A stretch of DNA of 64,000 bases from Gilliamella intestini (lineage in GTDB: Bacteria > Pseudomonadota > Gammaproteobacteria > Enterobacterales > Orbaceae): assembly GCF_900094935.1 (NCBI RefSeq), contig NZ_FMBA01000007.1, positions 1-64,000 on the forward strand, in the 5' to 3' direction. The notes beneath the pieces were generated by a model that had not been told where the DNA came from, did not search any database, and worked only from the letters and a program-made list of their open reading frames with translations. Positions 6,435-52,690 of this stretch are shown piece by piece; within the stretch, counting starts at the first letter, position 1; each line of letters begins with the position of its first letter. The position numbers and the translations under genes were made by a program.

Positions 6435-7787
6435 TTATTTTTTTATCACACTTTTCATATTTTGCTTAGATTCATACTGTTTTTCAGTCACTTTTTTACG
6501 ATAAGTGTTCTCATCATCGGTAAGAATTGCATCAGCCATTATATTATTTTTATCCATTTGTTCTTTTAATCTACTACTTACTTCTGGCTCGCGTTCGCTT
6601 AACATATCTGCTCGATCTCTAAGCTTTTTACTATTTTCTTGCAATAACTGTCTTGCTTCTTCTAATTTACCTTCATTATAAAGTTTTAAAGCTTTTTCAT
6701 TTTCAAGTGCAACTTTTTGTATTTCTGATTCGGCAACGACTTCATGAACAATGGCTTTATTAACTACATCTTGATTATCAGTATAAGCAATTTTAACGAC
6801 TTGGGTTTCATTTTCGGTTTTATTTTCTAATAAATTATTATATTGCAAATCAATTTGGGCAAGTGTTTTATTTTGCCCAACTTTACCTTTTTCTGGGATA
6901 ACTTCTAGTAATAGGTATTTTTCTTGATTTGAATACAATTGATTCATTTTAACTATAACTTGATTATCTTTAATCACACCATCACGACCAAGTAAACGCA
7001 CAGGCTTAACACCGTCTTTCAAATGAATAGTAATAATTACATCTTGCGCAACAGCAGACATAACATCTTTAAATTCACGCACAAATACATTTTCAAGCTT
7101 TGCTGTATCATCAATAAATACATGATTACCATCACTATAACTTGCAATCGAGGACATTAACTGCTCATTATAATCACTACCAATACCTAACGTAGTAATA
7201 GCAATATTCTTTTTAGCCGCAATAATGGCTAACTCTGAAAGTTCGCCAACCGAAGATGGTCCAATGTTAGCTTGCCCATCAGATAACAAAATAATTCGAT
7301 TAACTTTATCTTTAGTTAGTTGCTTTTCAACTTGATTAATACCTTTACTTAAACCAGCAAATAATGCTGTACCGCCACCAGCAACAATGTGTTTATTAAT
7401 CAATCTTATAATTTTTTGTTTATTAGTAACTTTAGAAGATGGCACAATAACTTTAGCATCAGAATCATAAGCAACAATTGATAACATATCTTCATTATTA
7501 AGCATATTAACCGCAAGAATAGCCGCTTCTCTTGCTTTTTTAATACGGTCACCAGACATAGAACCAGAACGATCAATGACTAAAGCTAAATTAATCGGTA
7601 CACGCTTAGATGAGTCAAACTCAATTCCAGTTAACGACACTTTTAAATAATTCTTTTCTTCTGAGTTTTCTAAGATAATAGGCGATGCCAATTCTGAACG
7701 AACCTGTATTTGATTATTTGTTTTAGCATTCCCCAAAAAGCTCAAGGCAGAAATTCCAATAAAAATAAGTGATTTAATAAATTTCAT
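6435..7787 (-). CDS. Secreted von Willebrand factor A domain protein
   Basis: A 450-residue protein with a cleavable signal peptide (MKFIKSLIFIGISALSFLGNA). A VWA domain spans about residues 65-235 with a complete MIDAS metal site: DxSxS at D72-S74-S76, the Thr in GGGTALF, and the Asp in LLSDGQANIG. A beta-rich segment follows, then a charged helical C-terminal part (about 340-450) with a TPR-like ALKLYNEGKLEEARQLLQ. There is no lipobox, transmembrane helix or LPXTG motif, so it is probably periplasmic or exported. VWA domains bind protein ligands through a divalent cation. It is the first gene of the operon with the kinase and regulator. Confidence 0.88.
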   Translation of the reverse strand: MKFIKSLIFIGISALSFLGNAKTNNQIQVRSELASPIILENSEEKNYLKVSLTGIEFDSSKRVPINLALVIDRSGSMSGDRIKKAREAAILAVNMLNNEDMLSIVAYDSDAKVIVPSSKVTNKQKIIRLINKHIVAGGGTALFAGLSKGINQVEKQLTKDKVNRIILLSDGQANIGPSSVGELSELAIIAAKKNIAITTLGIGSDYNEQLMSSIASYSDGNHVFIDDTAKLENVFVREFKDVMSAVAQDVIITIHLKDGVKPVRLLGRDGVIKDNQVIVKMNQLYSNQEKYLLLEVIPEKGKVGQNKTLAQIDLQYNNLLENKTENETQVVKIAYTDNQDVVNKAIVHEVVAESEIQKVALENEKALKLYNEGKLEEARQLLQENSKKLRDRADMLSEREPEVSSRLKEQMDKNNIMADAILTDDENTYRKKVTEKQYESKQNMKSVIKK

Positions 7788-8002
7788 GTTATTTCCTTTT
7801 TTATATGAAGTTTATCCAATTATCTGCTTTTTACAAAATAAACTGTCTGAATATTGTATTTATTTGTAAAAAAATGTAAAAAACCAAGTCAAGGATTTTA
7901 ATTTATGCCGATATTGCTTTTTGTTTATTGCCATGCCAAATGGCGAAAGTATATAATAAAAAATTGTCCATTCTTATAGAAATGATATAGAGAACATTTA
8001 AT

Positions 8003-8554
8003 ATGACTCAATTACAAGAAAAACTTGCACTTATTAAAAATAGTATTATCACCATACCCGATTACCCTAAAAAAGGGATTCTATTTCGTGATATTACTAG
8101 CCTGCTTGAAGATCCTGTTGCATTTCGTACTTCGGTTGAGCTATTAATCGATCACTATAAAGATAAAAAAATAGATAAAGTGGTTGGCACCGAAGCGCGT
8201 GGGTTTATCTTTGCAGCTCCAATTGCATTAGCATTAAATATTGGTTTTGTACCAGTAAGAAAGCCCAATAAGTTACCGCGTCACGTATTTAAAGAAAAAT
8301 ATCAACTAGAATATGGCACTGACACGCTTGAAATTCACTCAGATGCTATCAAAGCGGGGGAACGCGTATTAATCATCGATGACTTATTGGCAACTGGCGG
8401 TACAGTTGCGGCAACAGCAAAATTGATTCAAAAAGCAGGCGGCATTGCCCAAGATGCAGCTTTTGTAATTAATTTACCCGCTTTAGAAGGTAAAACTAAA
8501 CTCACTAATATGGGCATTAATTGTTTTACATTAGTGGATTTTGATGGTGAATAA
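8003..8554 (+). CDS. apt: Adenine phosphoribosyltransferase
   Basis: Apt salvages adenine with PRPP to AMP in the cytoplasm. The protein is 183 residues, the enterobacterial length. It shows [18 protein letters not shown] at the N terminus, [16 protein letters not shown], and the PRPP-binding loop [13 protein letters not shown]. It stands alone; a short hairpin follows 27 bases after the stop. Confidence 0.97.
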
Positions 8555-8581
8555 CCTATCTATTTAAAACATATCTTTTTA

Positions 8582-8601
8582 AGGGTAATTTATATTACCC
8601 T
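8582..8601 (+). terminator. Possible apt terminator hairpin
   Basis: AGGGTAAT-TTAT-ATTACCCT is a perfect 8-bp stem with a 4-base loop just after apt. The following sequence (ATTTATATAA) is a poor U tract, so the call is tentative. Confidence 0.45.
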
Positions 8602-8812
8602 ATTTATATAACCTTTATCACTTCTATACCGCTGTACAACTATCAATGGGTAACCTACTTACAACATCCCAACAATTCAGAACAGCTATAATTCAAAGCA
8701 CTACACCACAAAACAAAATTGAATAAAAAATCAAATTTAAGCTTGATTTAGTTTGTTTAGTGAATTATTATTCAAAAATAAAGCATAATTATAAAACAAG
8801 GGTGGATTGAAA

Positions 8813-9583
8813 ATGAAAAAATTTAGTCATATTATTGCAAGAACACCAGCTAAATCACTAATTAATGGTTTAACATCATCCAATTTAGGCAAACCAAATT
8901 ATCAAAAAGCCTTAGATCAGCACAATAATTACATTCGAGCATTACAACAGTGCGATGTCGATATCACCATCTTACCTGCCGATGAACGCTTCCCCGATTC
9001 AGTATTTGTTGAAGATACCGTTCTTTGTACACCTCATTGTGCCATTATAACAAGACCAGGAGCTGAAAGCCGTAGGGAAGAAACTGAAATCATTGTCGAT
9101 ACCATTGAAAGATTTTATCCAAATAAAGTAGAAAGGATTACCACACCAGGTACCGTTGAAGCGGGCGATATAATGATGGTTGAAAACCACTACTACATAG
9201 GTTTATCAGCACGAACCAACCAAGCTGGTGCCAAGCAAATGATTGCTATTTTAGAAAAGTATGGACTAACGGGATCTATCGTAACACTAGAAAAAGTTCT
9301 TCACCTAAAAACAGGACTTGCTTATTTAGAAAATAACAACTTATTAGCCGCAGGCGAATTTATAACTAAACCCGAATTTGGGCACCTTAATATTATTGAA
9401 ATTCCTGAACAAGAAAGCTATGCGGCCAATTGTATTTGGGTAAATGATAGAGTAATTATGCCAGCGGGTTATCCAATAACAAAAGCAAAAATTGAAAAGC
9501 TAGGTTACCAAGTGATTGAAGTGGATACCTCTGAATATCAAAAAATTGATGGTGGCGTAAGTTGCATGTCATTGCGATTTTAA
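8813..9583 (+). CDS. N(G),N(G)-dimethylarginine dimethylaminohydrolase-like amidinohydrolase
   Basis: An arginine-deiminase-superfamily hydrolase of about 256 residues. DDAH enzymes convert methylated arginine to citrulline plus methylamine. Supporting motifs are the substrate loop DSVFVEDTVLC, ITRPGAESRREE, GTVEAGDIM, the catalytic His in VLHLKTGLAYL, and the C-terminal nucleophile Cys in GGVSCMSLRF. I start at ATG 8813 rather than the TTG at 8807, because AAGGGTGG at 8798-8805 is then correctly spaced. An amino-acid antiporter gene follows after 50 bases. True substrate (methylarginine or another guanidine compound) is not settled by sequence. Confidence 0.85.
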   Translation: MKKFSHIIARTPAKSLINGLTSSNLGKPNYQKALDQHNNYIRALQQCDVDITILPADERFPDSVFVEDTVLCTPHCAIITRPGAESRREETEIIVDTIERFYPNKVERITTPGTVEAGDIMMVENHYYIGLSARTNQAGAKQMIAILEKYGLTGSIVTLEKVLHLKTGLAYLENNNLLAAGEFITKPEFGHLNIIEIPEQESYAANCIWVNDRVIMPAGYPITKAKIEKLGYQVIEVDTSEYQKIDGGVSCMSLRF

Positions 9584-9633
9584 AATAACTCAATGAAAAC
9601 TAACTGATATTTAACTAAAAAATAAGTGAATCG

Positions 9634-11043
9634 ATGAATACACCAATACGAAAAAAGCTAGGCATCCTGCCACTCACACTGTTAGTGGTTGGCAGTATTG
9701 TAGGCAGCGGTATTTTCAGCCTACCACAAAACATGGCCGAAAGTTCGGGCTCTGGCGCTATTTTAATTGCATGGATAATAACCCTATTTGGCATGTTAAT
9801 GCTAACACGGATATTTCAGTATTTATCGATTCGATTTTACAAAATCAATGATGGATTATATGGATATGTGCGTGAAGGCTTTGGCGATTATATCGGCTTT
9901 AATGCGGCGTGGGGTTACTGGATATCGGCATGGATGTCGTGCACCAGCTACCTAGTGATTTTATTTAGTGCATTAGGATCTTTTGATTGCTTGAGCTTCT
10001 TTGGTCATGGTACCACATTACCTGCCGTTATTACAGCTATCATATTTTTATGGATAGTGCACTATTTTGTATTAAAAGGAATATATCGTGCCTTTTTATT
10101 AAATTGTTTAGTAACATTCGCGAAAATAGTGCCTATTGGTTTATTTATTGTTTGTGTTAGCCTTGCCTTTAAAATATCGACATTTAAGATAGGCTTTTGG
10201 GGAACACCACAACTAGGCTCAATTATCGATCAAGTAAAAAACACCATGCTCTATACCGTCTGGGTCTATTTAGGGATTGAAAGCGCAACTGTGTATGCTG
10301 CTAGAGCCAAAAACATCATCAGCATTAGCCGAGCCACCTTTTTTGGCTTTGCTATTACCAGCTTATTGCTTGTTTGCGTATCTGTGTTATCGCTTGGTAT
10401 TGTGTCACAACAAGAACTTGCTCAAATGAAAAACCCTTCCATGGCACTTGTTATTGAACATGTAGTAGGCAGCTGGGGAGCAACATTAATTAATATTGGT
10501 TTAATTGTGTCAGTCAGTGGTGGATTACTATCATGGTTAATGCTAGCGGCCGAAATGCTATTTTTAGCTGGCCAAGGCACACAACACACAGTACCAAGTT
10601 GTTTTGGAAAACTCAACAAAGCAGGCACACCATCCAACGCATTATGGTTAACAACATGTTTAATAACTGTATTAATTATCCTTGCCCACTACTATCAATC
10701 TGGTTACAACACCTTAATCCAATTATCAACCTCAATGGTGCTTATTCCCTATTTACTGGCGGCTCTCTTTGTTTTTAAATTAGCCGTTCAACAAGGTAAA
10801 GCCTACTTAATTATGATTGGCGCTTTAGGATCGCTTTATGGCATATGGTTGATTTATGCCGGTGGCACAGTTTATTTATTACTGTCGATGATACTTTATA
10901 GTATGGGACTCTGTTTTTACCTTTATGCCAGAAAGGAACGATCTTTGCCAGCATTTAATTACTTGCATGACAAAGTGTACGCTATTGCAATCATCCTATT
11001 AGCTATCATCGCTATTTTACACTTCTACATAACACCAAATTAA
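9634..11043 (+). CDS. Basic amino-acid/polyamine antiporter (APA family, ArcD/YdgI-like)
   Basis: A 469-residue inner-membrane transporter with about 12-13 hydrophobic helices. The first helix carries the APC hallmark GSIVGSGIFSLPQNMAE, and VYLGIESATVYAARAK is the conserved helix-6 region of the arginine/ornithine antiporter group. Such proteins exchange arginine or lysine for ornithine, citrulline or a decarboxylated amine. It follows the DDAH-like gene in the same direction, which suggests exchange of substrate and product of that enzyme. Specificity is inference from context. Confidence 0.85.
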   Translation: MNTPIRKKLGILPLTLLVVGSIVGSGIFSLPQNMAESSGSGAILIAWIITLFGMLMLTRIFQYLSIRFYKINDGLYGYVREGFGDYIGFNAAWGYWISAWMSCTSYLVILFSALGSFDCLSFFGHGTTLPAVITAIIFLWIVHYFVLKGIYRAFLLNCLVTFAKIVPIGLFIVCVSLAFKISTFKIGFWGTPQLGSIIDQVKNTMLYTVWVYLGIESATVYAARAKNIISISRATFFGFAITSLLLVCVSVLSLGIVSQQELAQMKNPSMALVIEHVVGSWGATLINIGLIVSVSGGLLSWLMLAAEMLFLAGQGTQHTVPSCFGKLNKAGTPSNALWLTTCLITVLIILAHYYQSGYNTLIQLSTSMVLIPYLLAALFVFKLAVQQGKAYLIMIGALGSLYGIWLIYAGGTVYLLLSMILYSMGLCFYLYARKERSLPAFNYLHDKVYAIAIILLAIIAILHFYITPN

Positions 11044-31648: not shown

Positions 31649-32203
31649 ATGAAAATTAATTTCCCAACAACCTTAACACTATTTCGAGTCGTTTTAATCC
31701 CCTTTTTTGTGTTGGCATTTTATTTATTTCCTCATGGATGGTCTGGTTTTTTTTCTGCATTGATTTTTTTAATTGCTGCCGTGACTGATGTATTAGATGG
31801 TTATCTTGCTCGTCGTTTAGGACAAACCACTAAATTTGGTGCGTTTTTAGATCCCGTCGCTGACAAAATTATGGTAACCATTGCATTAGTTTTAATTACA
31901 CAATATTACCAAGCATGGTGGATCTCAATCCCGGCAATTATTATTGTTTCACGCGAAATAATCATATCAGCGCTGCGTGAATGGATGGCCGAAATCGGCA
32001 AACGTAACAGTGTTGCTGTTTCATCAATTGGCAAAATCAAAACGATTGTCCAAATGACAGCGCTAACTTGGCTTCTTTGGCGACCTTGTGATATGGTCAT
32101 TTACGCAGGTCTTGCAGCATTATTTATTGCAACAGTATTAACGCTATTATCAATGTTACAATATTTATGGATAGCACATAGCGATTTATTAGAAGGAGAA
32201 TAA
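31649..32203 (+). CDS. pgsA: CDP-diacylglycerol--glycerol-3-phosphate 3-phosphatidyltransferase
   Basis: PgsA makes phosphatidylglycerol phosphate at the inner membrane. The 184-residue protein has the complete CDP-alcohol motif: [27 protein letters not shown], with all four Asp residues present. That contrasts with YnbA in this window. Four to five membrane helices are visible. It lies downstream of uvrC and upstream of tRNA-Leu and tRNA-Gly, the same neighbourhood as in E. coli. Confidence 0.96.
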
Positions 32204-43115: not shown

Positions 43116-44054
43116 TTATGTCCAATAATATCGTACAATATGAAAAAAAACGGGTGCAGAAAAACAGATAGAGTCTAAACGATCAAGCATACCACCATGC
43201 CCTCCAATAAGTTTACCCCAATCTTTGATACCTTTATCTCGTTTTATTGCTGACATGACCAGTCCGCCCAAAAATCCAAGTAGAGTAATCATCAGCGAAA
43301 TCAAACCCGATTGAATAAAAGTAAAAGGTGTTATCCAAAATAAACAAGCACCAATCAAACTTGCCGATAACACTCCACCAATAAAACCTTCAATGGTTTT
43401 TGATGGTGATAAATTTGGGCTAATAGGATGTTTACCGAATAATTTACCAAAAACATATTGTAAAACATCTGAAAGTTCAACAACCAAGACTAAAAAAGCA
43501 ATCAAAAGTAAATTACGATCTTGATAATGTTCAATGTTTAATGCTGATAATGCTGGCACGCAAGAGATACTATAAACAGTAATCATTAATCCCCATTGTA
43601 CTTCAGCCGTTCTTTCTAGAAAATTATGGGTTGAGCCTGTGATTGCTGCTAAAATAGCTAATAACAAAAAACCATAAACAGGAATAAAAATACTAAATAG
43701 CCCATACCATGACACAGCCACTAAAATATATTGTAAAGGTAAAACAATAAAATAAGAAAATATTAAAGCATAATTGTCATAATCATTAGCCGAAGTTAAA
43801 GTAAGAAATTCTCGCAAGGCGATAGCGGATGCTAGGAAAAATAGAAAAATAACTGCCAATTTACCTAATAAAAATGCAATACCAATAATTACTACCATTA
43901 CCCACCATGAATTAATGCGAGTATTTAAATTATCAATGACACTATTCGGGCTTTTTATGCGTTTTTTTAGTTGTAAGCCTATTATTGATGCAATAATGAG
44001 TAATATACCTATCCCCATAAACAATAATAAAGTATCACGTTGATAATCAGACAT
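43116..44054 (-). CDS. ynbB: Phosphatidate cytidylyltransferase-like protein YnbB (CdsA family)
   Basis: CdsA-type enzymes make CDP-diacylglycerol from phosphatidate and CTP in the inner membrane. The 312-residue protein has about eight helices. The signature is seen in SPSKTIEGFIGG and, near the C-terminus, SAIKRDKGIKDWGKLIGGHGGMLDRLDS with the metal-binding Asp residues. It is the last gene of the ynb-type operon, and a second CDP-DAG synthase besides the expected housekeeping cdsA. This supports a dedicated phospholipid branch. Confidence 0.88.
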   Translation of the reverse strand: MSDYQRDTLLLFMGIGILLIIASIIGLQLKKRIKSPNSVIDNLNTRINSWWVMVVIIGIAFLLGKLAVIFLFFLASAIALREFLTLTSANDYDNYALIFSYFIVLPLQYILVAVSWYGLFSIFIPVYGFLLLAILAAITGSTHNFLERTAEVQWGLMITVYSISCVPALSALNIEHYQDRNLLLIAFLVLVVELSDVLQYVFGKLFGKHPISPNLSPSKTIEGFIGGVLSASLIGACLFWITPFTFIQSGLISLMITLLGFLGGLVMSAIKRDKGIKDWGKLIGGHGGMLDRLDSICFSAPVFFHIVRYYWT

Positions 44055-44117
44055 TGTCTTCCCCCTTAATTACATTTGCAGTGTAATAAATTTAAATCAA
44101 TCCTAAAGCGATACTAT

Positions 44118-44600
44118 TTAACCAAAACAAATTATTCCACTGATTAATATTCCAACTAATAGTAGCATTTGTAAAATAAGCCAAAAAATTTGTTTTTTTA
44201 ATAATTTTATTGTTCCTTTTTGGCGTTCAATAATTGATCTTGTAGGGAGTTGATTGGTGTTAATTAAATTTAATTGTTGTAATGCTTCATCTAATTCTAT
44301 TAACTTATTTGGTAGCTGATCAACATTAATGGCTAAATAATCGAATAACTTTTTATCAAATTCAATACGCAGGGCATAATATTTGCTTATTAATCCCATC
44401 AAAAAAACAATAATACAACCAATAACGCATAGTAATGAACCTATCCACCAACTTGCTATCAATCCAAAACATAATGTTATTACCGTTATAGCTAATGAAA
44501 AAATATAAAATTGCTTACTCATTGCCAATAAGCTACAAAATGTCACCAGTGTAGTTTGATTTGTAATTTTAGGTGATTTTGTTTTGTTATAGCTTAGCAT
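44118..44600 (-). CDS. Unrecognised small membrane protein in the ynb operon
   Basis: A 160-residue protein I do not recognise. Two hydrophobic hairpin segments stand at about residues 30-70 (FYIFSLAITVITLCFGLIA, SLLCVIGCIIVFLMGLIS) and one near the C-terminus (ILQMLLLVGILISGIICFG). A soluble helical stretch with LIELDEALQQLNLI and RSIIERQKGTIKLLKKQI lies between, perhaps coiled coil. The start overlaps ynbD by 7 bases; an internal Met27 is an alternative. Its place between ynbD and ynbB suggests a complex subunit. The function is unknown. Confidence 0.7.
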   Translation of the reverse strand: MLSYNKTKSPKITNQTTLVTFCSLLAMSKQFYIFSLAITVITLCFGLIASWWIGSLLCVIGCIIVFLMGLISKYYALRIEFDKKLFDYLAINVDQLPNKLIELDEALQQLNLINTNQLPTRSIIERQKGTIKLLKKQIFWLILQMLLLVGILISGIICFG

Positions 44601-45916
44601 AGGTTTCCTTTGTATATTTGTAAAAATAGATCTGATAAAATTAAACGTTGCTTAGTTGTAATAACTACTGAATGACGGCTTGACTTAACTTTAGTCATGG
44701 CATCATCAAGACTAGAAGCCCTTTTTGTTAGTAATAGCCAAGCAATTACTGCAGTTGCACTACGTGAATAACCTAATGCGCAACAAACTAGTACATTTCC
44801 TTGTTTATGATACTGCTCAATAATTTTAGAAACTTGCTGACATTGTTCAAGAGTTAGTGGTGTCATATCTAACACTGGAATTGAGCTATAATTACTAGAA
44901 ATATGTCCTATAGGTAATTCGGCACACAGATCAACAATCGAGAAACAAGAATTTTTTCGTAATGTATTATTAGAGGGTATTCGTCCTAAATAAACATTAT
45001 CACAAATCAAATCTATGGAGTTTTTTCTTAATGTCCATAATCGAGAATTAATCCACATGATTATAAAATAAGGTAAATATAAAATAGTAGTGGCAAGATT
45101 AAAATGTCCGTTAGTCTGCTTTTGAAATCCTATTGCACCAACAAATAAGTAATTGCCACAAACCAATAATAAGGAACCCGAAAGCCACAGCAACCAAAGC
45201 CACCATCCATTAAAGTAGATTGCTAAACTCAGAGATAACAAAAATAATATAAAATAGATACCAGCCCAAACATAGTGTTTGGCTAATTGTCTATTTTTTA
45301 ATGGCGATAAGTTGTTATCCGGCCATAACCAAATACAAAAACAACCAACCCATAATCCAGTTGGAATATCAAAAAAATGGTGTTGCCAAGTTGTTAATAC
45401 TGACACGCCTATTAAGAGACACCAAACATGCAAAATATAACGAGCAAGCTTGCTATGTAAATAATTAACATAAAACTGCCATAAAATGATAAGTAATGTG
45501 ATGTGTAATGAAGGTGCTTGATTAAATGGCTTATCAAATCCCATTAAAACATTAAATAATATTCCAGAAAAGCCATCTAATGGTGGGCGTTCAAAACTAA
45601 ATGTAAGCGGAAAGATTAAAAAAACAAAAATACAAATAATCTGAGCTGATAAAAGTCTAAAGCCAAGTCTTTTAAGAGTTGGGTAACAGCTAGTCAACAA
45701 AATAGCTAATCCATACATAAGATCTATTGACCAATATGATATGATAGTCCAAGGCCATAAAGGTATTGAGTGTTCCCATTCAAAAACTAAACTGCCTACA
45801 TCACTTCGCATCGCTGTAAGTTCATTGGCAAAATTATAGCTAGTAAAAAAGAAAACGGTTAAACTAACTAACCATGCTAACTTATAAGCAGTTAGCTTAT
45901 TAAAGCAATATTTCAA
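44594..45916 (-). CDS. ynbD: PAP2 / dual-specificity phosphatase fusion YnbD
   Basis: A 440-residue membrane protein with two phosphatase modules. The N-terminal two thirds hold about nine helices with PAP2 motifs: PSLH (QAPSLHITLLI, near 140) and the H-x-x-x-D of TTWQHHFFDIPTGLWVG. The C-terminal 140 residues form a dual-specificity/tyrosine phosphatase with the P-loop CCALGYSRSATAV (Cys-x5-Arg), a general acid Asp candidate in SIPVLDMTPL, and DNVYLGRIPS at its start. Such a pair could act on a lipid phosphate and on a phospho-head-group. It is a known but uncharacterised E. coli architecture. Substrate is inferred. Confidence 0.85.
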   Translation of the reverse strand: MKYCFNKLTAYKLAWLVSLTVFFFTSYNFANELTAMRSDVGSLVFEWEHSIPLWPWTIISYWSIDLMYGLAILLTSCYPTLKRLGFRLLSAQIICIFVFLIFPLTFSFERPPLDGFSGILFNVLMGFDKPFNQAPSLHITLLIILWQFYVNYLHSKLARYILHVWCLLIGVSVLTTWQHHFFDIPTGLWVGCFCIWLWPDNNLSPLKNRQLAKHYVWAGIYFILFLLSLSLAIYFNGWWLWLLWLSGSLLLVCGNYLFVGAIGFQKQTNGHFNLATTILYLPYFIIMWINSRLWTLRKNSIDLICDNVYLGRIPSNNTLRKNSCFSIVDLCAELPIGHISSNYSSIPVLDMTPLTLEQCQQVSKIIEQYHKQGNVLVCCALGYSRSATAVIAWLLLTKRASSLDDAMTKVKSSRHSVVITTKQRLILSDLFLQIYKGNLC

Positions 45917-45931
45917 CTCACATATTCTCTA

Positions 45932-47683
45932 TTATTTAATTCGCTGAGCCAGTGATACGGTAAATATCCCCCACTGATCAATACGCATGGTAATCTTTTT
46001 AAATCCAGCCTCTGCGACAAGTTGGTCCATTTCAAGTTGGGTACGTCTGCGCATAATCCAAGGTTGTCCATTTCGGTGTGATGTTAATGCCCTTGCTATA
46101 AATTCAAGTTGTGGGTGCCAAGGTTGATTAGTATAAATTAAATATCCTCCTTCAGGTATTGAGTCAGCAAGGCCAGATAGGGAGTTACGTAGCAACTGAT
46201 TATCACTAAACAGCTCATACAAACCAGATACAACGGCTAAAGTTGGTTTAGGTGATAATTGGGCTAGTTGCTCACGATTAAAAGCATCGCCTTTTTCAAA
46301 ACGTGCTATATTTAATAAACCCTTCTCTTCTATTAATGTTTGACCTGCAAACACATTAATATCGCTATAATCTCGTAGTAAGATCGAATTGGGTTTATTG
46401 GCTATTTGATTAATCGTTTCTAAAATATAACGCCCATGCCCTGCTGCTATATCAACAATATCGACTGGCTTATTTTGCTCATGAAGTTGATTGATAACTA
46501 GTTTCAACAGTTCTTCAAGGTGTATTTTTCGTTGACGGATACCCCGCCACCCGATAGATTGTAAGTAAATGTAATCTAAAAAACGCCCTAGTTTTGAAGT
46601 GCCAGACGGTTCATTACGATAGACATAATCCAATGAGCTCCCTGAATCAAACCCCATTGTCGTGCCCAATTTTATCCCATCTGAAAGTCGGCTTGCATAT
46701 GCTAAACTAGCTTTAATAAATTTCCAATATAAAGGTTTAATCCAACCCGATGGCGGTAAGGCTAAATTATCTGCTTCTTGTCTTGTATAACCAATCATAT
46801 CGGCATTAGTAAATGACTGAATCTTAGGTTGATTTGCAAAGGCTCCGAAAATAAATCGCCTTGCACGATCGATTGCTAGTTTTCGTTCTTTTTCACCAAA
46901 AGTATCATGATAAAAGCCAGACAACACATGAAACTCTTTTTGCTCAGTACCTAAATTGTCATAAAATTGTTTTTGCGGTTTACGTCTTACTACATAATCC
47001 GAACCTGAAACTAATAATTGCGTTGGAATGTTAATGGCATTGGCATCTTTAACAATACGATCAGACACAGCATATAAATCAAGAAGTAACCGAACCGATA
47101 TCGGTCTAGTAATTAATGGATCTTGGGTAAATGATTTGGCATGTTCAACGTCATGTGTCAACAATTTAGGTTTAACATAACTGTTAACAAAAAAATTGCC
47201 TTTTAAGTTATACAGCAATTTCAAACCTGGTACGGCTAATGGGACATATAATTTTACACTAAAAGCAGGTGAAGCTAATACCAAAGCTCGAATATTGGGT
47301 ACATAATCATGTACCCATGCCGAGGCAATGACAGCACCAACACTTTGGGCGATAATGGCAATATCTTCTTGACGAAGATTATACTCCTGCATGATATGTT
47401 CAATGAAACAGTTAGCATCTTTAATTAACGTTGCAAAATTGGGTGCATCACCTCGCTCACCTTCTGATTGACCATTACCTCTAGCATCCCAAGCAAAGAT
47501 TTGATAATTGGGTAAATTTAATTCATCAGCAAGATGTGCGACACGTCCCGAATGTTCATGCCCACGATGAAAAATGACTATTGCTCTAGGCTGATTAGCA
47601 TTGCTATTAACAACAGGCCAATAGCGATAAAATAACTGACAACCATCATGACTAATAAATGTTTTTTGTTGCTGTTGACGCAT
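45932..47683 (-). CDS. ynbC: Alpha/beta-hydrolase--methyltransferase fusion YnbC
   Basis: A 583-residue cytoplasmic two-domain protein. Residues 1-280 are a monoacylglycerol-lipase-like alpha/beta hydrolase (PF12146-type): FHRGHEHSGR, WDARGNGQSEG, nucleophile Ser114 in the elbow AQSVG (first Gly replaced by Ala), Asp in SGSDYVVRRK and His in SGFYHDTF. From about residue 400 a class I methyltransferase follows, with motif I VDIAAGHGRYILE and VVSGLYELFSDN. Lies between ynbA and ynbD with gaps of 12 and 15 bases. It could deacylate and methylate lipid intermediates; the substrate is unknown. Confidence 0.85.
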   Translation of the reverse strand: MRQQQQKTFISHDGCQLFYRYWPVVNSNANQPRAIVIFHRGHEHSGRVAHLADELNLPNYQIFAWDARGNGQSEGERGDAPNFATLIKDANCFIEHIMQEYNLRQEDIAIIAQSVGAVIASAWVHDYVPNIRALVLASPAFSVKLYVPLAVPGLKLLYNLKGNFFVNSYVKPKLLTHDVEHAKSFTQDPLITRPISVRLLLDLYAVSDRIVKDANAINIPTQLLVSGSDYVVRRKPQKQFYDNLGTEQKEFHVLSGFYHDTFGEKERKLAIDRARRFIFGAFANQPKIQSFTNADMIGYTRQEADNLALPPSGWIKPLYWKFIKASLAYASRLSDGIKLGTTMGFDSGSSLDYVYRNEPSGTSKLGRFLDYIYLQSIGWRGIRQRKIHLEELLKLVINQLHEQNKPVDIVDIAAGHGRYILETINQIANKPNSILLRDYSDINVFAGQTLIEEKGLLNIARFEKGDAFNREQLAQLSPKPTLAVVSGLYELFSDNQLLRNSLSGLADSIPEGGYLIYTNQPWHPQLEFIARALTSHRNGQPWIMRRRTQLEMDQLVAEAGFKKITMRIDQWGIFTVSLAQRIK

Positions 47684-47695
47684 AACTTTCCCTCG

Positions 47696-48304
47696 TTATT
47701 TTTGTGTTTCTTGCATGCCTTTTCGAACTCGGTTAATAACAGTATAAATAAGTAAAAAACTGATGATCCATAATAACGTATTAATCCACATTAAAGGTAA
47801 TAAATAAGTTGCAATACCTAAACTTATCACCCCAAAAACAAAGGCTCGATCGCTTTTACCCATTGGTCCATCATATCGCCTTGACGCGCCAATCATAACA
47901 CCTAAAATGCCACTATATTCTGTTAAAATGGATAGTAAAACCACACAAATAACTAAATTGATATTTACTTCTTGAAGTTGTGTAAAAATAAGTAATAGCA
48001 CGCTGTCAGAAATGACATCACAAATTTCATTTAAATAAGCACCTAAATTTGATTTTTGCTGATATTCTCTAGCTAACATACCATCGATCGCATTAAGTGC
48101 CATACGGATAAACATCCATATTGGAATAAGAAAAAAAATCCATTGATATGATGCCAATATTCCAACAATAAAAGCAATCATAATAGAACCCAAACAGGCA
48201 ACTAAAGTTACTTGATTAGCAGTAATATTAGCTTTATAAAGACGATCAACATAAGGACGTAGTCGTGCTTGAAACTTCGGCTTTAATTGATAAATTGATA
48301 ACAC
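47696..48304 (-). CDS. ynbA: CDP-alcohol phosphatidyltransferase family protein YnbA
   Basis: A 202-residue inner-membrane protein with about five helices. The CDP-alcohol motif is recognisable but changed: NAIDGMLAREYQQKSNLG followed by AYLNEICD. In the canonical pattern D-x2-D-G-x2-A-R-x8-G-x3-D-x3-D the first and third Asp are Asn here. pgsA in the same window keeps all four. The family transfers a phosphatidyl group from CDP-DAG to an alcohol; the changed metal site implies different chemistry or substrate. It is 13 bases downstream of queH and starts the ynb gene run. Confidence 0.87.
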   Translation of the reverse strand: MLSIYQLKPKFQARLRPYVDRLYKANITANQVTLVACLGSIMIAFIVGILASYQWIFFLIPIWMFIRMALNAIDGMLAREYQQKSNLGAYLNEICDVISDSVLLLIFTQLQEVNINLVICVVLLSILTEYSGILGVMIGASRRYDGPMGKSDRAFVFGVISLGIATYLLPLMWINTLLWIISFLLIYTVINRVRKGMQETQK

Positions 48305-48317
48305 AGGAAATCCTTGT

Positions 48318-49037
48318 TTAAATTTCTTTAGCTAATCCTTGTTTAGCGATTTTTATCACATTTTTTAAATCAACACCTTGTGCTTTGGCGGCAAAAATAC
48401 AACCACAATAACATTGCCGATAAACATCATACTCTTTACAAAGCTCGATAGAGCGTTTATAACCATTATTCTTTTTGAAATCAGAAGGGAGATAATTGAC
48501 CGAAAAGATTTCTTGAATTTCAAACCCCAGTTCATTTATTTTCTGACTATTCTTTTTAGGGCTTAGTGTTAACGCACTTGCAAAATAGTCAAAGCCCAAT
48601 TCTTGTGCTTTAATTGCTGCCAGATCTAATCGCATCTTGTAACAAATATGACAACGCTCACCACCTTCTGGTGCATCACGCAAATGACCAACTTGTTTAA
48701 TAAATTCTGCTGGCTGATAAGGTGCTTCTAAGAATTGAACGTTATTACCTGTTTTTTGATTAAAGTCAGCAATAAATTTCTGTTGCACCACACTACGGTG
48801 CTCATATTCAACTCTGGGATGGATATTAGAATTAGCAAAATAAATCGTAATATCTGCATATTGTGCTAAATACTCTAAAACATAGGTACTACAAGGTGCA
48901 CAACAACTATGAATTAGTAACTTTGGTCGAACTGATTCTGATTGCCAATTATTAATCACTTCTTTTAAAACAGAATCGTAATTTACTTTATTATGTGGAT
49001 TTAATTTTTCGAGAATATTTTTAGCATTAATTAACAT
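48318..49037 (-). CDS. queH: Epoxyqueuosine reductase QueH
   Basis: QueH reduces epoxyqueuosine to queuosine in tRNA wobble position 34, and is the non-homologous substitute for QueG. The 239-residue protein (DUF208) has the Cys motifs LIHSCCAPCSTYVLEYL, GERCHICYKMRLD and the C-terminal YRQCYCGCIFA, which hold an iron-sulfur cluster and an adjacent metal. It heads the transcription unit that continues into ynbA. Confidence 0.93.
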   Translation of the reverse strand: MLINAKNILEKLNPHNKVNYDSVLKEVINNWQSESVRPKLLIHSCCAPCSTYVLEYLAQYADITIYFANSNIHPRVEYEHRSVVQQKFIADFNQKTGNNVQFLEAPYQPAEFIKQVGHLRDAPEGGERCHICYKMRLDLAAIKAQELGFDYFASALTLSPKKNSQKINELGFEIQEIFSVNYLPSDFKKNNGYKRSIELCKEYDVYRQCYCGCIFAAKAQGVDLKNVIKIAKQGLAKEI

Positions 49038-49322: not shown

Positions 49323-50513
49323 TTAATTTTCTCTCCTAGCATTGGTCGATATTATCTTTTGAACATAACGTTTTTCTAAAATAAATGCGATACAAAAATA
49401 GACAATGGTTAATATCCACAAATGCCAATATTGCTGACTAAATTCGGAAAAACTTGCTCCCATTTGATTTATTTTTACTGACCCAACTATAGCTGGCACA
49501 GCTGGAAATATATAGCCAATAAAATGGAACAAAGGAGGCATCAATTCTTTTGGCCAAGATAATCCTGTAACAAAAAAGATAATCATACTTGACGGTATAA
49601 TTAAGCAAAATACATCACTTACCGTATGGACAAAATGTGAAACAATTTTACCTAATAACGAAGTGGATAAAATAAAAGGAAGAATAAATAATAAGGAAAC
49701 AAATAGATGACTTAAGCGCGGTAAGTCATACCAATAGTTAGCAAATACGGTATAAATAATAAAATAGATTAAATAAAGCACTAAATAAGTCAATAATTTA
49801 CCAGAAAGCAGTAATAATGCCGATGAGACCGTGTGATTCTGTTTATTAACAAAGGCTATTTCAAAATCAGAATTTTTACTAAATAGACGGCATAAAATAC
49901 TACCGATAAATAATGTCTGATTTAAGATCAAAATAAAAGCGGCAGGGATAATATAGGTTGCATATCCTGATTGAGGATTAAATAAACTAATTAACTGGCT
50001 ATTAAAAGGGGAAACATTATTATTTGCTACTGCAGGATCGACACCTTGCGCTATTTTGCGTGAAATTGAAATTTTAGCGCCAAAATTACTGGCAACGGTA
50101 TTAATGGCGGTAGCAACATTACTATAAATTAAAATATAGCTTGCATCGCCATAATATGACACTGGGCTAGTTTTTCCTTCTAATATATTTTTTTGAAAAC
50201 GGTAAGGTATGAGTACAACTCCATATATTTTACGTTCTTCGATAAGTTTTTTAGCTGTTTCTAAGTCTGCTATATGTAAATCTATATTGATGGATTTATT
50301 AGCATCAAGTTGTCTTACTAGATCTCGACTGTAATTGGTATTATCTTGGTCAATAACAGCAATAGGAACATCTCGGATTGCTTCATGTAAATAGGGTTGT
50401 GGGTAAAAGATGAAATAGATAAATATTCCCACAAACATAACACTAACTATCGCTTTGGTTTGGAAAATTCGTTTTAATTCATCATAGGAAATTAATAGTA
50501 AAGATTTAATCAT
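49323..50513 (-). CDS. ABC-2 type membrane permease (second of pair)
   Basis: A 396-residue ABC-2 permease: one N-terminal helix (AIVSVMFVGIFIYFIFYP), a large periplasmic domain starting VPIAVIDQDNTNYSRDLVRQLDA, then five C-terminal helices. This is the YhhJ/YbhS-like architecture (ABC2_membrane_3). The start overlaps the previous permease by 4 bases. No ATPase domain or gene is present in the operon. Likely function is export of a drug or small molecule together with the HlyD protein and TolC. Confidence 0.85.
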   Translation of the reverse strand: MIKSLLLISYDELKRIFQTKAIVSVMFVGIFIYFIFYPQPYLHEAIRDVPIAVIDQDNTNYSRDLVRQLDANKSINIDLHIADLETAKKLIEERKIYGVVLIPYRFQKNILEGKTSPVSYYGDASYILIYSNVATAINTVASNFGAKISISRKIAQGVDPAVANNNVSPFNSQLISLFNPQSGYATYIIPAAFILILNQTLFIGSILCRLFSKNSDFEIAFVNKQNHTVSSALLLLSGKLLTYLVLYLIYFIIYTVFANYWYDLPRLSHLFVSLLFILPFILSTSLLGKIVSHFVHTVSDVFCLIIPSSMIIFFVTGLSWPKELMPPLFHFIGYIFPAVPAIVGSVKINQMGASFSEFSQQYWHLWILTIVYFCIAFILEKRYVQKIISTNARREN

Positions 50514-51670
50514 ATCAACCGCCTACGGATCTTTCGTAAAAAAAGATAAACAAGAATAGCCATAACACCCAATTGGATCACTAAATAAACAAACGGTTGT
50601 AATGAAGTTACTATATTTGGCGATCTTAATGTTTGATCAAGACGAATTTGTATATACCATGTTACAGGTAATAAAGCACTCCAAATATAAGCAAAGGTAT
50701 TCATTGCAATCCGAGGGAAAATAAGCCCAGTAAATCCAAACGCAGGTGATGCTACTAAGCTTGCAGTGCCATAAGCTTGTGCTAGTGTTGATCCCGTTAA
50801 ACCAAAGAAAATACCATACAAACATGAAGTCAAGATAAAGCTTATATCACCAAGTATAAGCAATATTAAATGTCCATTTAAAGGCAAATTAAAATTAGCA
50901 ATTAAAACGGTATCAAATAGAATCAAGCAAAATAAAAAATAGATAAAATAAGGAATAATGCGTCCTAATAAAAAGATAAAAATATTATGATTAGCTAATT
51001 TTAATATTTGCTGATACCCCATTTGAGTAAAACGATCACGAGTAATACTAGTAACCATGGCCATCATAATAATGATTTGTAATATAGTGGGAATTAAACC
51101 ACTAATTAACGTATATAGATAATTTAAAGTTGGATTATATAAGGGATGTAAACTTGTCGGAATAGTTTGCATTTGGCTTTGTGCAACTGGTGAAGCAATT
51201 CCTTTTTCTAATAATCCTTGCAATACTATTTGACTATTTGCTGTTTTCAATGCGGAACTCATCGCCCGAAAAATAATCGTTCCAGCTGACATATACTGAT
51301 TATTATAAAAAGCGACAACTTCTGGCTGATGACCAGCTATAAGATCTTTTTCAAACTCATGTTGAATGAAAAGCACAGCATAAACATCACCTTTAATCAA
51401 CGCATGTTTAGCAGAGGTAAGATCTTGATAACGTTCAGCTACCTGTAGCTGAGGTGAAGCAGCAACTTGTTGAATCAATAAGCGAGATGACTTGGTTGTG
51501 TCTTGATCAACAACAGCAATAGGTACCTGAGTAATAACACCGGCATGGTACATATAAACAAATAAAAAAATAAATAATAAAGGATAGATGAAAACCAATA
51601 AACACCAAATACGTTGTTTAATTAATTTACGAAGTTCCCATCCAATTACTTGAAATAGCCGGTGATACAT
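50510..51670 (-). CDS. ABC-2 type membrane permease (first of pair)
   Basis: A 386-residue ABC-2 permease, paralogous to the next gene. The N-terminal helix is WCLLVFIYPLLFIFLFVYMYH; the periplasmic region starts VPIAVVDQDTTKSSRLLIQQ, and the C-terminal membrane domain has five or six helices. It follows the HlyD gene by 42 bases and overlaps the second permease. In E. coli yhiI-rbbA-yhhJ the middle gene also carries ATPase domains; here the ATPase part is absent. Confidence 0.85.
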   Translation of the reverse strand: MYHRLFQVIGWELRKLIKQRIWCLLVFIYPLLFIFLFVYMYHAGVITQVPIAVVDQDTTKSSRLLIQQVAASPQLQVAERYQDLTSAKHALIKGDVYAVLFIQHEFEKDLIAGHQPEVVAFYNNQYMSAGTIIFRAMSSALKTANSQIVLQGLLEKGIASPVAQSQMQTIPTSLHPLYNPTLNYLYTLISGLIPTILQIIIMMAMVTSITRDRFTQMGYQQILKLANHNIFIFLLGRIIPYFIYFLFCLILFDTVLIANFNLPLNGHLILLILGDISFILTSCLYGIFFGLTGSTLAQAYGTASLVASPAFGFTGLIFPRIAMNTFAYIWSALLPVTWYIQIRLDQTLRSPNIVTSLQPFVYLVIQLGVMAILVYLFLRKIRRRLI

Positions 51671-51712
51671 TAATATCGTTCCCTTTTGTGTAAAATCTCA
51701 ATATTATTCAAG

Positions 51713-52690
51713 CTAGCGAGATTGCCACTTTGTAGTAACGCTCATTCCTGGGCGGAGACCTGACACTTTATTAATTGGTTTAGCGCGCATTTCAAAAGTC
51801 TTTAAGTCAAAATCACCCGTTGCTTTAGTCGCCTGCCAATTCGCATATTGACCTAAAGCATTTAATACAGTGACTTTAACATCTATAATCTGATTGTTTA
51901 ATGCCGGTACTCTTACTTGAAACGTATCACCAACTTTAAGGTTTCCCAGCAAATCTTCGCGTATATTAAAAGTAAACCAAATATCATTTAAATCAATAAT
52001 AGAATAAAGCGGAGTACCTGGGCTGTATAATTGCCCTGTTTCAGCAACTCGAGTCGTAATTTGACCGTTAATTGGAGAAACTAAAGTTAATTCATTAACA
52101 TCAGCTTTTACTTGCGCTAAAGCAGCCTTTGATTGTTCTACTTGAGCATCAGCTAATTTTTTCTGTTCTATGCTACTGCCATTTTCAGCCAATGTCAGAT
52201 TAGCTTTAGCTGCTTCATAAGCTTTAATAGCGGCTTGATATTGATTAAAGGATTCATCATAATTTTGCTTTGAAACCGTTCCATTTTTGGCTAAACGATT
52301 AATTCGGTCATAGCTAGCTTGAGCTAAAGCTAAATCCAATTTTGCTTTATCTAATTGAGCTTTTTGTAGATCAATTGTTTCTGGCCTAGTACTATACGTC
52401 GTATCACGACTTGCTATTGCCACATTTAATTGTGCTTCAGCGCTTGCAAGCTGAGCTAACAATGCAGGACTTGAAAGAGTAAGAAGCGTATCACCTTTTT
52501 TAACATCATCCCCAACATCATAGTTAAATTGAATCACTCGACCTTGTACTCTAGCGGCAACATCAACACGGTTAGATTCAACTTCACCCTGTAATATAAT
52601 GGTACTAGGTTGATTAGCAAAATAGATAATAATAACCATAGCAATAACAGCAATGATTGCTATAATCAAAGAAAGACGTTTTTTATGCAT
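51713..52690 (-). CDS. HlyD-family membrane fusion protein
   Basis: A 325-residue periplasmic adaptor anchored by an N-terminal helix (LSLIIAIIAVIAMVIIIYF). The lipoyl-like half motifs are VAARVQGRVIQFNYDVGDDVKKGDTLLTL and, C-terminally, LTLVSPINGQITTRVAETGQLYSPGTPLYSI. Between them is an Ala/Gln-rich alpha-helical hairpin (about 70-190) of the kind that meets TolC. It heads the operon with two ABC-2 permeases. Confidence 0.9.
   Translation of the reverse strand: MHKKRLSLIIAIIAVIAMVIIIYFANQPSTIILQGEVESNRVDVAARVQGRVIQFNYDVGDDVKKGDTLLTLSSPALLAQLASAEAQLNVAIASRDTTYSTRPETIDLQKAQLDKAKLDLALAQASYDRINRLAKNGTVSKQNYDESFNQYQAAIKAYEAAKANLTLAENGSSIEQKKLADAQVEQSKAALAQVKADVNELTLVSPINGQITTRVAETGQLYSPGTPLYSIIDLNDIWFTFNIREDLLGNLKVGDTFQVRVPALNNQIIDVKVTVLNALGQYANWQATKATGDFDLKTFEMRAKPINKVSGLRPGMSVTTKWQSR

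Follow-up and report, generated by a model that had tools for sequence, protein, structure and literature searches.

What does a tightly packed operon do that gives Gilliamella intestini a second cytidine diphosphate (CDP)-diacylglycerol synthase, together with a CDP-alcohol phosphotransferase homologue, a hydrolase-methyltransferase fusion and a phosphatase fusion? We analysed 64,000 nt of contig NZ_FMBA01000007.1 (the window; 33.9% G+C), part of a 79-kb contig in a 2.52-Mb genome, in which the genes ynbA, ynbC, ynbD, orf160 and ynbB form one unit at 43116-48304 (Table 1). By gene order and sequence this operon is, with near certainty, a relative of the arc1 cluster of Pseudomonas aeruginosa and the ynbABCD genes of Escherichia coli, and stands nearer to the former. 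On balance we favour the view that it runs a dedicated phospholipid side branch which would help the cell to withstand phospholipase attack. Other genomes of the same genus are called congeners below, and published papers are cited for those parts of them that were covered.

Relation to arc1 and ynbABCD

The comparison strain for arc1 was P. aeruginosa PA7, in which the cluster was located with the primer pieces published for the PAO1 PA2541 deletion (PMC8926400). Two of the four pieces match PA7 at the expected places (the start of ynbA and 1.6 kb further) and two do not match; the genes following the PA2541 equivalent are taken as PA2540-PA2536 from their order and number. The PA7 cluster reads ynbA-ynbC-ynbD-orf160-acyltransferase-ynbB, six genes as in arc1A-F (PA2541-36). 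Five of these genes stand in the window, in unchanged order and on one strand, with a dedicated CDP-diacylglycerol synthase and the same Asn-containing (N-type) CDP-alcohol phosphotransferase, but it is without the acyltransferase that lies between orf160 and ynbB in P. aeruginosa. This acyltransferase was not found elsewhere in the window's genome either (best 50 bits versus 254 in P. aeruginosa). The identities to PA7 are 61% for YnbA, 59% for YnbC, 47% for YnbD, 28% for orf160 (E 8e-15) and 62% for YnbB, and those to E. coli are 49%, 53%, 37% and 38% for YnbA, YnbC, YnbD and YnbB, respectively. E. coli K-12 shares the homologues of YnbA, B, C and D and likewise has no acyltransferase in the cluster, but its order is A-B-C-D instead of A-C-D-orf160-B and no orf160 was found in K-12.

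With homologues of YnbA, YnbB and YnbC in one cluster, the locus belongs to the wider arc1/ynb group. It holds five of the six homologues of a complete P. aeruginosa-type arc1, in the order A-C-D-orf-(LPLAT)-B on one strand, LPLAT being the lysophospholipid acyltransferase, and is hence placed in the wider group and not among the complete arc1 clusters. Ting et al. (2022) give arc1A-F as PA2541-36, but their Methods and strain table disagree, with Arc1F in the former and pa2541 in the latter (PMC8926400); the gene meant by arc1A in later papers is not fully certain. The main texts of PMC8926400 and PMC12663445 contain no instance of the term ynb, the supplements being outside the scope, and our literature search found no published statement joining arc1 and ynb, some ynbA-naming papers (e.g. 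PMC12871917, PMC10134817 and PMC13031359) being outside its reach.

An unusual catalytic signature in YnbA

The canonical motif of the CDP-alcohol phosphotransferases is D-x2-D-G-x2-A-R-x8-G-x3-D-x3-D, and its aspartates are kept by the window's own PgsA as well as by the PDB relatives in four alignments with YnbA. The window's YnbA departs from it with R67-x3-N71-x2-D74-G75...G88-x3-N92-E93-x2-D96. It belongs to the same family by profile as the phosphatidylinositol (PI)-phosphate synthases and PgsA, but differs from them in its motif: Asn stands in place of the first and the third aspartate, Glu follows the third position, and an Arg precedes the first position by four residues. The N-type motif N-x2-D-G...N-E-x2-D occurs in 44 of 44 YnbA proteins with a readable motif; score was the sole criterion for calling these YnbA, the window's genus supplies 15 of the 44, and one more (L108) is cut before the motif. 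Seven lower-scoring proteins of a sister clade (L110-L114, L122 and L129; ~40-66 bits to YnbA) are also N-type, though they were grouped partly by motif and their motif is therefore no independent test. Most of the seven lie beside YnbB, five of the seven loci have both YnbB and the acyltransferase, and YnbC and YnbD were seen in none of the seven. All 51 N-type proteins carry the Arg, and the residue after the second Asn is Glu in 50 and Asp in one. As a control, the other eight matches with a readable motif all have the aspartates and no such Arg, and no mixed type was observed.

The signature suggests that YnbA may work without the textbook two-metal site. A G-P-x-[G/A]-K-x-x-R stretch, common to the four YnbA and six sister-clade rows aligned, falls near arginines of the PI-phosphate synthase segment and hints that the acceptor of YnbA may carry a phosphate. 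The best PDB profile match of YnbA is the CDP-diacylglycerol-inositol phosphatidyltransferase 6h53 (2.5e-10), and its NCBIfam scores, all below the cut-offs, are 75 bits for archaetidylinositol-phosphate synthase (cut-off 180), 50 for PI-phosphate synthase and 28 for PgsA. A literature search on an Asn variant of the CDP-alcohol phosphotransferases gave nothing on point. A single-sequence structure model of YnbA was poor (pLDDT 56.9, pTM 0.31) and was not used.

We speculate, as an unlikely but attractive extension, that YnbA and the sister clade could form a separate catalytic class, in which R67, N71, N92 and E93 would rebuild the two-metal site, the Arg perhaps replacing one metal. Such enzymes might be active solely together with a CDP-diacylglycerol synthase and an acyltransferase of their own, the three forming a closed channel and giving a lipid that phospholipases could not cut; arc1, the E. 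coli ynb genes and the window's operon would then be elaborated or trimmed forms of a widespread three-gene core.

Nested co-inheritance in gammaproteobacteria

We searched 370 gammaproteobacterial genomes, 369 besides the window's own, with thresholds chosen after inspecting the score gaps. Strong matches to YnbB, YnbA, YnbC and YnbD (at least 289, 143, 299 and 460 bits) were found in 27, 20, 9 and 6 of the 369 genomes, respectively, each set lying inside the previous one. The weak matches that were dropped score below 270 bits for YnbB (7 genomes), 80 for YnbA (14), 40 for YnbC (5) and 140 for YnbD (9). The 14 genomes dropped for YnbA comprise six with a sister-clade protein and YnbB, the genomes G245 and G133, and six others (five with the D-type motif, one with an unreadable motif). 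The probability of the nesting of YnbC inside YnbA is 5e-13, a rough guide as it was computed over all 370 genomes, the window's own included, and the genomes are related.

YnbA and YnbB share one cluster in 18 of the 20 genomes and lie on separate draft contigs in the remaining two. The arc1-type acyltransferase stands beside YnbB in 23 of 27 genomes, and ten of the 11 genomes with YnbA and without YnbC have the plain ynbA-ynbB-acyltransferase trio. Seven YnbB genomes have no strong YnbA; six of these carry a sister CDP-alcohol phosphotransferase, five in the same cluster, and in the seventh YnbB reaches the contig end. One of the six YnbD genomes (G170) has YnbD ~42 kb from the cluster. Exceptions to the pattern are two genomes that have no YnbB, G245 with a sister-clade N-type gene at a contig end and G133 with a partial YnbA on a contig of 7.6 kb, and a distant YnbB (227 bits in the genome search, 203 bits with our hidden Markov model) paired with a D-type phosphotransferase (G041, locus L117, 7926-9535).

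The co-occurrence expected in the preliminary description, which had been made from the letters of the window, is thus observed in the form of nested sets. The nesting points to a core of acyltransferase, YnbB and YnbA with YnbC and YnbD as extensions, and suggests the order of the pathway.

Extent of the operon and active sites

The gaps of 13, 12, 15, -7 and 63 bases from queH to ynbB, read in the preliminary description as one transcription unit, match the open reading frame (ORF) coordinates exactly, and Pfam agrees with the domain contents given there (CTP_transf_1, CDP-OH_P_transf, Hydrolase_4 with Methyltransf_20, PAP2 with DSPc, and QueH). In the NCBIfam scan no protein of the queH-ynb set scored above the cut-off, and orf160 has no family above the cut-off in either the Pfam or the NCBIfam scan. 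Membership of queH in the unit is not borne out. The genes ynbA-ynbC-ynbD-orf160-ynbB are packed in all 13 congeneric loci measured (ORF gaps of -86 to 65 with longest-ORF starts), and the queH-ynbA distance ranges over 148-4597 bases in these 13 congeners, being 148-309 bases in four loci and ~4.5 kb in nine; the 13-base gap was seen in the window only. We take queH as a neighbour and rule it out as a pathway gene because this distance varies. The arrangement of the five genes is not a matter of chance, since all 13 congeneric loci share their order, as does P. aeruginosa with the added acyltransferase.

Table 1. Coordinates of the operon genes, of the neighbouring queH and of a PgsA-like gene in the window
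Product	Position	Strand	Remarks
YnbB, CDP-diacylglycerol synthase paralogue	43116..44054	-	CTP_transf_1 (PF01148) 2.4e-64
orf160, small, hydrophobic by inspection	44118..44600	-	homologue of P. aeruginosa cluster gene 4; hidden Markov model matches in other clusters
YnbD, PAP2-like and dual-specificity phosphatase fusion	44594..45916	-	TTG start; PAP2 1.7e-6, DSPc 1.3e-12
YnbC, fusion of hydrolase (monoacylglycerol-lipase-like) and class I S-adenosylmethionine methyltransferase	45932..47683	-	Hydrolase_4 3.6e-67, Methyltransf_20 3.1e-142
YnbA (Arc1A-type), CDP-alcohol phosphotransferase homologue	47696..48304	-	202 aa, GTG start; PF01066 6.1e-10
QueH	48318..49037	-	PF02677 3.9e-63; neighbour only, 13 bases from ynbA
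PgsA-like phosphotransferase	31649..32203		sole other CDP-OH_P_transf match in the window's genome

An ORF of 1424-1442 aa occupies the space between queH and ynbA in five of the nine ~4.5-kb loci, namely the five displayed (L055-L058 and L060). The one of these that was domain-scanned (L055, 11074-15360, ~1430 aa) has BcrAD_BadFG and DUF2229 domains, and the gene is missing from the window. Upstream of queH on the same strand, the window encodes an ABC-2 permease, a second related ORF and an HlyD-like protein (49323-52690). Homologues of these follow queH in L052-L054, and none were seen in L055-L058 and L060.

The CDP-diacylglycerol synthase signature S-x-x-K-R ... K-D ... G-H-G-G-x-x-D-R-x-D is intact in 14 of 14 aligned YnbB proteins. 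The hydrolase triad of YnbC (S114-D229-H259) is kept in all 14 cluster-linked copies and broken in both lone copies, which have no other ynb genes (L051 8040-9818 and L067 5980-7611). All 16 aligned copies, the lone ones included, retain the methyltransferase core D-[I/V]-A-x-G. The lone Kosakonia copy of YnbC lies downstream of acyl-carrier, ketosynthase, MaoC and FabG genes. The hydrolase is nearest to monoacylglycerol lipases and has a weak match to lysophospholipase L2 (42 bits versus a cut-off of 362).

The dual-specificity phosphatase (DSP) loop C-x5-R of YnbD (C379-x5-R385 in the window) is kept in 13 of 13 aligned proteins. The usual PAP2 motifs are K-x6-R-P, PSGH and SR-x5-H-x3-D; all 13 aligned YnbD proteins keep PSLH and QHHxxD and have the Arg of the third motif replaced, and the first motif is reduced to RP (11) or KP (2). 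The C-terminal DSP domain resembles PTPMT1, a phosphatidylglycerol (PG)-phosphate phosphatase, with an intact C-x5-R and a match to 3rgo at 3.1e-13, which upholds the likeness proposed earlier as one among several: five listed sequences outscore 3rgo and other DSPs match nearly equally well. YnbD differs from PTPMT1 in its additional PAP2-like domain.

A probable dedicated phospholipid branch and its alternatives

The function of arc1 has been studied in P. aeruginosa. The cluster is induced via Gac/Rsm and protects the cell from the type VI secretion system (T6SS) of Burkholderia thailandensis (PMC8926400). Five of its six genes were described as phospholipid-related, four of them resembling PG-synthesis enzymes, and a specialised phospholipid pathway was considered likely (PMC8926400), so that the central idea of the preliminary description was already in print for the homologue. 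Mutants in arc1A are more sensitive to Vibrio cholerae, and less so when the competitor has no active TseL; they are also more sensitive to Acinetobacter baylyi carrying only Tle1, findings that tie the cluster to lipase effectors of the T6SS (PMC12663445). Altered growth under some antibiotics was reported for arc1A, arc3A and aas (PMC12663445). For E. coli, YnbB makes CDP-diacylglycerol in vitro according to a review (PMC7018664). The remark that the ynb genes have no assigned product overlooks the link between YnbB and the glycolipid MPIase (PMC6362211) as well as the arc1 defence phenotype (PMC8926400, PMC12663445). A Brucella paper (PMC9491525) was set aside as a source, as the parts covered concern other genes.

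A possible pathway would start from phosphatidic acid, which in most relatives would come from the module's lysophospholipid acyltransferase and here presumably comes from other acyltransferases of the cell. YnbB would activate it to CDP-diacylglycerol, and the N-type YnbA with its altered metal site would move the phosphatidyl group to an alcohol acceptor, probably a phosphate-bearing one. The DSP domain of YnbD might then take the phosphate off the YnbA product, while YnbC might trim the product or an intermediate with its hydrolase and methylate it. The end product would be a minor phospholipid that replaces or protects the attacked membrane lipid. We infer the reaction order, the acceptor and the methylation target from the predicted enzymes. 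The role in defence would carry over from arc1 by analogy, and antagonism is plausible in the niche of the organism, as its genome has two TssF genes and TssF occurs in 18 of 24 genomes of the genus. The dedicated branch proposed in the preliminary description thus holds in outline, by the nested co-inheritance, the second CDP-diacylglycerol synthase and the PTPMT1-like phosphatase; what falls away is queH, and the acyltransferase of the wider module and the non-canonical motif of YnbA had been missed. For methylation of the lipid, the basis is the presence of the methyltransferase domain itself.

Several points weigh against the defensive side branch. The arc1 defect could not be put down to any single B. 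thailandensis effector, just one of the arc1 genes exceeded the threefold cut-off for Tle3, and the loss of arc1 slightly helped the competitor too (PMC8926400); arc1A has also been termed auxiliary (PMC12663445). T6SS (TssF) and YnbC are unassociated in the genus (16 of 20 carriers versus two of four non-carriers, p 0.25). The arc1-type acyltransferase was not found in any of the seven genomes tested of the window's genus (best 47-54 bits versus 254 in P. aeruginosa). YnbC or YnbD is missing in many core carriers, so that the core reaction needs neither.

Four other explanations deserve consideration. The operon might provide redundant PG synthesis, the acyltransferase, YnbB, YnbA and YnbD remaking PG via PG-phosphate under attack and YnbC recycling lysolipids, with no unusual lipid involved. 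The published resemblance of four arc1 products to PG-synthesis enzymes, the fact that the YnbD phosphatase domain has PTPMT1 as one of its best PDB matches and the lipase likeness of YnbC all speak for it. We consider it unlikely, as YnbA is without two of the four aspartates kept in the genome's own PgsA and scores nearer to the archaetidylinositol-phosphate and PI-phosphate synthases, although below the cut-offs, and PG synthesis does not call for a methyltransferase. The same scores and the match to 6h53 would fit an inositol-phospholipid branch with YnbA as PI-phosphate synthase and YnbD as its phosphatase. However, the catalytic motif of YnbA differs, and PF07994, the N-terminal family of myo-inositol-1-phosphate synthase, is absent in 22 of 22 carriers outside E. 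coli (18 with YnbC and four with the trio only) versus five of 14 control genomes having it. On this ground we reject cell-made inositol as the acceptor and regard such a branch as extremely improbable, inositol uptake being the way left to it.

YnbB could instead make GlcNAc-PP-diacylglycerol (GlcNAc, N-acetylglucosamine; PP, diphosphate), the base of MPIase, as a backup. Overproduction of E. coli YnbB raises MPIase, YnbB failed to complement the loss of cdsA (PMC6362211, PMC7018664), and ynbB turned up among the transposon hits in a strain whose sole enterobacterial common antigen (ECA) was the phosphoglyceride-linked form, though it was dispensable for that ECA (PMC8609368). On the other side, the E. 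coli ynbB deletion gave no significant MPIase change and MPIase bears an ECA-type trisaccharide (PMC6362211), while the ECA polymerase WzyE, used as a proxy for ECA with the other ECA genes outside the test, is absent in all 22 of these carriers, including the window's genome and P. aeruginosa; E. coli, itself a carrier and the control, was positive. With this proxy, MPIase as a general product is rejected, and YnbA, YnbC and YnbD would be left unexplained, making the backup role very unlikely. The operon might also make the unusual methylated phospholipid of the preliminary description for housekeeping or for stress, with no bearing on antagonism, which would agree with the methyltransferase core that even the lone YnbC copies keep. 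We regard this as quite doubtful, because the published phenotype found for the homologous cluster is defence against antagonism and arc1 mutants survive heat, peroxide, salt and detergent as the wild type does (PMC8926400).

Distribution and mobility

The arc1/ynb module is patchy and mobile. YnbC is present in 20 of the 24 genomes of the genus, the window's own included and one being a fragment. It has a match in 58 plasmid records, in 29 of them over at least 80% of the query. All six genes are annotated on Shinella, Rhizobium and Burkholderia plasmids, with ynbA or the acyltransferase-ynbB pair inverted. A Citrobacter plasmid has the order ynbA-ynbB-acyltransferase-ynbC-ynbD-orf, and an E. 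coli conjugative plasmid the first four genes in that order. Carriage by phages is rejected: YnbC has no match among 50,697 phage records, and of the 17 and 43 viral stretches that fit the YnbA and YnbC patterns, respectively, none codes for a relative. Among complete E. coli genomes the operon has a match in 4579 of 5426, with at least 80% of it in one place in 4239.

One congener (L059, 6462-11450) has an E. coli-type ynbABCD that is 55-73% identical to E. coli and replaces the type of the genus in another neighbourhood. This copy groups with E. coli at 100/100 support, apart from the remaining congeners (99/99), which points to a second acquisition.

Variants of the module were seen elsewhere. 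A Fusobacterium vincentii record (L066, 5974-9093) has a three-gene ynbC-ynbA-ynbB version with the N-type motif. On a Moraxella plasmid (L065) a single ORF at 5284-6582 matches YnbA and the YnbC hydrolase, by fusion or frameshift, and is followed at 6622-9646 by a methyltransferase piece, a patatin-like phospholipase and a short-chain dehydrogenase/reductase. Insertion sequence elements interrupt the ynb region in five E. coli genomes (H41-H45), those listed among the 4579 matches.

Implications

The idea of a phospholipid pathway for arc1 is already published; what we add are the nested co-inheritance and the N-type signature of YnbA. The Asn-for-Asp exchange means that the central transferase may depart from the textbook two-metal site. 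The literature covered gives the E. coli ynbABCD genes no role other than the link between YnbB and MPIase. Their kinship with arc1 makes this orphan operon, which has a match in most of the complete E. coli genomes, a candidate for defence against phospholipase toxins.

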